DNA of 64,000 bases from Plectrocnemia conspersa (lineage: Eukaryota > Arthropoda > Insecta > Trichoptera > Polycentropodidae): contig VTFK01000174.1 of the NCBI GenBank assembly GCA_009617715.1, positions 248,001 through 312,000 on the forward strand, in the 5' to 3' direction. Within the stretch, counting starts at the first letter, position 1; each line of letters opens with the position of its first letter. A program made the translations under genes and the position numbers. This document shows positions 36,876 through 37,312 of the stretch, piece after piece. Under the pieces are notes generated by a model, which did not search any database, was not told the origin of the DNA, and was given only the letters and a program-made list of their open reading frames with translations.

Positions 36876-36989
36876 CTGTTGTGAAATTTATAGCGGCAAT
36901 CATCGGCAGCCACGATGTCCATCAGTAAAATGTATTTTGCTTTTTTATCGAGCCCAGAAACGCGTACTTTGTAGGCAGGGAACATGCGC
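36876..36989 (-). CDS. bi: bi/omb alternative T-box exon, version A (RMFPAYK; proximal)
   Basis: This exon encodes part of the T-box immediately before the constitutive exon. Acceptor ...GTTCCAG is followed by G, the last base of a split codon that is probably Arg. Then come 37 codons: [16 protein letters not shown], then [21 protein letters not shown]. It ends in AG before donor GTATAC, and AG plus the T of the next exon makes Ser (FHN-S-RWMV). Total 114 nt, phase 2 in and phase 2 out. The residues are almost those I recall for vertebrate TBX2/TBX3 ([21 protein letters not shown]). The acceptor has a weak pyrimidine tract. Third positions are G or C in 19 of 37 codons. A 209-nt intron separates it from version B upstream. 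Both being in frame and equal in length implies that a transcript takes one or the other; this is inferred, as no transcripts are visible here. Confidence 0.93.
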
Positions 36990-37198
36990 CTGGAACGATC
37001 ACACAAAAGTGCTTGCTTTCAATGACTCAACACCAGAAATGAAAAAAGGGGTGACACAAATACATGAGAGAGTTTTCGGCTCGGCGTGCTGAAAAGCGTG
37101 GATAGTATTTTTTTTTTGTTTTGGGTGCAAAGATTACAAATAATAAAAAAAAACACTTAAAAACGACAAGTTTTCCATAGGCCTCGATTTGGAACTAC
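36990..37198 (-). other. Short intron between the two alternative T-box exons
   Basis: This is a 209-nt intron bounded by GTAGTT and GTTCCAG on the minus strand. It is long enough to be spliced, so physical crowding alone would not stop A and B from being joined. Including both would stay in frame and duplicate 38 residues of the T-box. It holds oligo-T and oligo-A runs. I found no convincing long complementarity (docking/selector pairing) by eye. Confidence 0.8.
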
Positions 37199-37312
37199 CT
37201 GTTGTGGAACTTATATCTGTAGTCGTCGGCGGCAACGATGTCAAGGAGGAGGATGTACTTTGCCTTGGCATCGAGACCGGACACCCTGAACTTCATCTGC
37301 GGAAACATTTGC
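37199..37312 (-). CDS. bi: bi/omb alternative T-box exon, version B (QMFPQMK; distal)
   Basis: This is the second version of the same T-box exon, lying 5' of version A in transcript order. Acceptor ...GATTTCAG is followed by G and then 37 codons: [16 protein letters not shown], then [21 protein letters not shown]. It ends AG before donor GTAGTT. Length (114 nt), phase and final residues are identical to version A. Seven of 37 residues differ: Q/R1, Q/A5, M/Y6, F/V8, A/K15, L/M23 and Y/C31. All residues typical of the fold ([23 protein letters not shown]) are kept, so it is not a decayed copy. Third positions are G or C in 28 of 37 codons, against 19 of 37 for A, showing long separate histories. 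I recall the fly Omb protein as resembling this version; that is memory, not something shown here. The upstream T-box exon (ending TKSG) is not in the window. Confidence 0.93.

Follow-up and report, generated by a model that had tools for sequence, protein, structure and literature searches.

Omb/Tbx2/3 proteins take part in the patterning of limb, wing and nervous system. The locus described here raised the question whether one such gene, bi/omb, carries two versions of a single exon inside the sequence encoding its T-box DNA-binding domain, and whether these are spliced as alternatives to one another. The window, that is the whole 64-kb stretch of DNA analysed, covers positions 248001–312000 of contig C156 and contains 0 N and no gaps. 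We argue that the two exons, denoted U and D, are very probably an old tandem duplicate of one internal bi/omb exon, which has been kept as a pair of alternative, mutually exclusive exons.

The earlier note on this DNA had described two exons of 114 nt, 209 nt apart, in phase 2 at both ends and identical at 30 of 37 residues, and all of this was confirmed on the minus strand (Table 1). Both exons are bordered by AG and GT and neither contains a stop codon, in agreement with the intact splice sites and open frames claimed for them. The acceptors read ...TTTCAG/G in U and ...TTCCAG/G in D, and the donors CAG/GTAGTT and CAG/GTATAC, respectively. A split Arg codon (AG/G) contributes its final base to the start of both exons, and a split Ser codon (AG/T) its first two bases to their end. 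The identity of 30/37 refers to whole codons and becomes 31/38 when the split Arg codon is counted; at the DNA level 76 of the 114 positions agree (38 differences, a divergence of 33%). The seven residue differences that had been listed were all recovered, and in U/D order they are Q/R1, Q/A5, M/Y6, F/V8, A/K15, L/M23 and Y/C31. Their reported clustering at the start of the segment amounts to four of the seven within residues 1–8, and the R/Q site is, as had been stated, beside an Arg, namely that of the split codon, which is retained in both forms. Among the acceptor tracts that of U is the weakest, with 11 pyrimidines in 18 positions as against 13/18 in D and 14/18 in the next exon.

Table 1. 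Features of the bi/omb locus around the exon pair (window positions unless marked as contig positions)
Feature	Position	Strand	Description
5′ T-box exon	contig 333158–333235 (ends 333159)	minus	T-box match; ends ...MVITKSG + AG
G+C-rich block	37313–37380	minus	56% G+C against 30% background; directly upstream of U, open in the frame of U, with an ATG
Exon copy U	37199–37312	minus	114 nt; both ends in phase 2; (R) + 37 residues
U–D intron	36990–37198	minus	209 nt; fold not unusual
Exon copy D	36876–36989	minus	114 nt; both ends in phase 2; (R) + 37 residues; closer to TBX3 than U is
Next shared T-box exon	35467–35620	minus	...NNISDKHGF; acceptor TTTTTTTAG, donor GTAAGT; T-box match at contig 283464–283631
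Possible exon extension	35458–35466	minus	9 nt, GTAAGTACT = V S T, if the second donor GTACGT is used; predicted
Downstream T-box exon	contig 216906–217058	minus	T-box match on the same contig as U and D

The assignment of the gene to bi/omb (Tbx2/3), on which the earlier note had settled, was upheld when U joined to the next exon was compared with the sequences of solved structures. Among the 14 that matched, TBX3 scored best at 175.5 bits, followed by TBX5 at 122.7, TBX1 at 107.8 and brachyury at 95.6 bits, and the product is thus closer to TBX2/3 than to the other T-box classes. The Pfam profile PF00907, whose cut-off is 26 bits, recognized a T-box domain in U plus the next exon at 121.6 bits and in D plus the next exon at 125 bits, and even the single exons scored 42.6 bits (U) and 45.6 bits (D). 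A scan of the genome (an assembly of 393 Mb in 959 contigs) with the T-box profile gave 20 matches from 24 candidates, all of which were scored, and five of the matches were located on C156, the 1.17-Mb contig that carries bi/omb. On the minus strand they follow one another in the order 5′ exon, U, D, the exon at 35467–35620 and the exon at contig 216906–217058; the intron preceding U is ~47.8 kb long, the one separating U and D 209 nt, the one between D and the shared exon 1255 nt, and the one after the shared exon ~66.4 kb. These five exons together with one further exon read as a continuous, in-frame T-box with either U or D. The upstream T-box exon, from which the earlier note had wished junctions to be mapped, lies outside the window, since it ends at contig 333159, which would be window position 85159. 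Of the two junctions into 35620 that it had put forward, the one from 37199, the end of U, stands, while the one from 36989 has to be replaced, this being the first base of D, which ends at 36876.

Some further observations were made on this gene and its relatives. After the HGF codons of the shared exon two donors, GTAAGT and GTACGT, stand in tandem 9 nt apart (35452–35466, minus strand), and the VST extension, when joined to the following exon, stays in frame and inside the T-box. This tandem donor stands at the HGF/TILNS border, where exon 2a of vertebrate TBX3 is located. Within the large bi intron, an open reading frame of 216 aa (39953–40603, minus strand) matched DDE_Tnp_1_7 at 136 bits, a family which we take to be that of piggyBac-like transposases. 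Two Tbx20-like genes, L011 and L013, lie ~142 kb apart on opposite strands of one contig, C16, and are presumably mid/H15-like. Two candidate 5′ T-box exons were also noticed, L014 on C16 and L019 on another contig, C650.

Homology between U and D extends only a few bases past the exons, the matching piece spanning 295–417 and the exon 301–414 in the coordinates of the excerpts compared. Other matching pieces are short, the best having an E value of 0.045, and a longer piece of 100% identity is merely the stretch common to both excerpts. When U was searched against the genome six matches were obtained, of which the closest were U itself and then D at 82% identity; the remaining four, at 54, 47, 44 and 39% identity, are exons of different T-box genes, presumably org-1-like, brachyury-like and two Tbx20-like genes. 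This ranking, with D ahead of every other T-box gene, makes it most likely that the exon duplication arose within the bi/omb gene itself. Relatives were also sought among viral contigs, which gave no match. A search for bacterial 16S, in which 5 of 1201 candidates were scored, was likewise negative.

The differences between U and D fall on codon positions 1, 2 and 3 in the numbers 8, 5 and 25. By the Nei–Gojobori method dN was 0.21 and dS was not computable, which we read as saturation of the synonymous sites. When 38 random changes were put on D in 20,000 runs, at most 23 of the 38 residues stayed unchanged (mean 14.8) as compared with the 31/38 observed, and a stop codon was gained in 71% of the placements. 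The edge-limited homology, the 25 of 38 differences at third positions and the apparent saturation, combined together, point to an old exon duplication of which both copies would have been kept by selection at the protein level, and neither to an assembly error nor to a decayed copy. For an assembly artefact, or for allelic copies placed side by side, we found no supporting point, and such an origin is hardly credible in view of the 33% DNA divergence, the similarity confined to exons, the gapless window and the 1.17-Mb contig. There is a slim chance that one copy alone is used today and that the other is a leftover yet to decay, as the weak acceptor tract of U might suggest. A copy long unused should, however, have lost its frame, and the open frames of both U and D therefore count against such a leftover, as does the limited amino-acid change in the face of saturated synonymous sites.

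Homologous mutually exclusive exons, as treated by Pillmann et al. 2011 (WebScipio, PMC3228551), have the same length, phase and borders, resemble one another and contain no stop. U and D are adjacent internal exons of similar length and the same phase, with compatible splice sites and no stop, and in BLOSUM62 scoring the comparison of U with D reaches 78% of the value for D against itself, the threshold for this relative score in the published predictor being 15% (PMC3228551). Gap costs are irrelevant to the figure of 78%, since the two exons are equally long. On the fly X chromosome 16,180 exons carried an annotation other than mutually exclusive, and 90 of them, spread over 6 of 1705 genes, were reported to share these features; the 65 internal exons predicted there comprised 26 with an existing annotation as mutually exclusive and 39 new predictions (PMC3228551). 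In human, many similar neighbouring exons are described as not being spliced mutually exclusively (PMC5740500).

In the splicing that we propose, the 5′ T-box exon would be followed by either U or D, and this in turn by the shared exon at 35620. The T-box would be complete in both cases, and the split Arg codon in the GRR/GRQ motif would lead directly into one of two different core pieces of 37 residues. We infer that both exons are used, giving products which differ in binding or in partners, and that they are used one at a time, because one copy, and only one, is needed to complete the domain. Joint inclusion could in principle be prevented by a frame shift, by an intron that is too short, by a U2/U12 mismatch or by RNA pairing; the first two were checked on U and D and neither applies, as 114 nt is divisible by 3 and the intron is most likely not too short. 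The steric criterion is <50 bp from donor to branch point (PMC5740500), and here the whole U–D intron has 209 nt. This would leave the exclusion to be set by splicing factors at the splice sites, or by RNA structure. Both joint inclusion and joint skipping of U and D keep the frame, so the sequence itself forbids neither, and it is conceivable that the two exons are included together or act as cassette exons, producing a T-box with an insertion or deletion of 38 residues. But no gap is needed to align the segment with TBX3 and TBX5 within the T-box, for which reason doubling or losing it would be expected to disrupt the fold, and we give such usage a slightly smaller chance than even the leftover copy.

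RNA structure as the means of exclusion was looked for and nothing unusual was found, the fold being ordinary and the pairings weak. The region 36850–37400 folded with a z score of 0.19, and 57 of 100 shuffles were as good; seven pairings among the G+C-rich block, the introns and the exons gave z scores from −2.77 to 0.67, each against 30 simple two-base-block shuffles. The best of them (−2.77), which pairs the G+C-rich block with the 300 nt that follow D, is unconvincing after seven tests. The block itself is equalled or exceeded in G+C content by 202 of the 6394 steps of 68 nt in the window, and it is possible that it serves as a regulatory element or as an alternative start. U could be the start of a shorter alternative transcript, made from an intronic promoter and encoding a protein without the first part of the T-box; the frame is indeed open for 49 codons upstream of U, through the G+C-rich block, and contains an in-frame ATG. 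An equally long open run was, however, met with in 158 of 3452 sampled window stretches per given frame, which makes it mildly unusual, and the AG acceptor of U is located just where the homology to D begins. We consider a start of this kind improbable, to the same degree as the leftover copy, and retain U and D as alternative internal exons.

Comparison with known T-box proteins bears on the age of the two forms. D is identical to human TBX3 at 33 of 37 residues and U at 28 of 37, and at the seven positions where the exons differ the TBX3 residue is present in D at five and in U at none. Taken alone, this closeness of D to TBX3 would make U the derived copy. The published Drosophila Omb/bifid protein (UniProt Q24432) appears to have a T-box of the U type, reading like U of this gene; one indirect support is that use of the second donor would add exactly VST and, with the following exon, give a 16-residue string like that of fly Omb. 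Peptide strings searched in the literature gave no match. If fly Omb is indeed U-type, U would be the ordinary fly-type exon, with D as the vertebrate-like form, and the duplication would probably predate the split from flies. A bolder suggestion, which we offer tentatively and would sooner doubt than defend, is that some insects keep an old, tissue-specific omb switch between a vertebrate-like D core and a fly-like U core with differing site preference or partners.

Mutually exclusive exon pairs are of a known kind, and the literature searched yielded no account of the U/D case. Set against pairs of the WebScipio type (PMC3228551), it lies within the T-box DNA-binding domain, and its exclusive use is a prediction from sequence. 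Vertebrate TBX3 with and without exon 2a is a comparable case in the same family, for there, too, alternative splicing alters the T-box of a Tbx2/3 protein (PMC7044113); exon 2a, however, inserts 20 residues, whereas U and D would swap a piece of the core. For an optomotor-blind protein-like gene of the brine shrimp two isoforms in total are listed, one of them male-biased, in a table that does not give the differing part (PMC8465105), and we draw no link from these isoforms to the U/D pair. Among the literature matches listed there was no description of alternative exons in the insect omb T-box, although insect genome annotations might list both, and in the literature searched no mutually exclusive exon case was described for the T-box DNA-binding domain. 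Exons 18 and 18b of FOXP1 are swapped inside the forkhead DNA-binding domain, and functional data on them exist; this swap is like that proposed for U and D in its location within a DNA-binding domain and concerns another gene family. Should the proposed splicing be true, one dosage-sensitive patterning gene would yield two proteins, and this long-kept natural swap would allow two DNA-binding cores to be compared with the rest of the protein unchanged. Work with a single cDNA may then cover one omb form only.

As for DNA binding, the R/Q difference corresponds to R131 of TBX3, and the split-codon Arg that the U and D forms share to R130, in a numbering that we deduced; the six further differences fall at TBX3 positions 135, 136, 138, 145, 153 and 161. 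For several T-box proteins, loss of DNA binding has been reported when the beginning of this segment is altered (PMC4625211). The TBX3 double mutant G129A/R130S did not bind DNA and still partly repressed a reporter, and TBX5 G80R, Omb R355K and TBX2 R122E/R123E are cited in the same paper as losing binding through changes at homologous or nearby positions (PMC4625211). It is plausible that the products of U and D differ in DNA preference or in partners.

The second Arg of GRRMFP is kept in D and in four other T-box genes of the genome, and we take these to be two Tbx20-like genes, one org-1-like and one brachyury-like. Its absence from U had raised the idea that U encodes a DNA-binding-dead, dominant-negative form, which was set aside since fly Omb appears to carry the same Q; because fly Omb appears to be U-type, U is probably not dead for DNA binding, and even a weakened binder is doubtful. 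In one divergent T-box gene of the genome, L018 (C361:666000–669300), the second Arg of GRRMFP is replaced by C.
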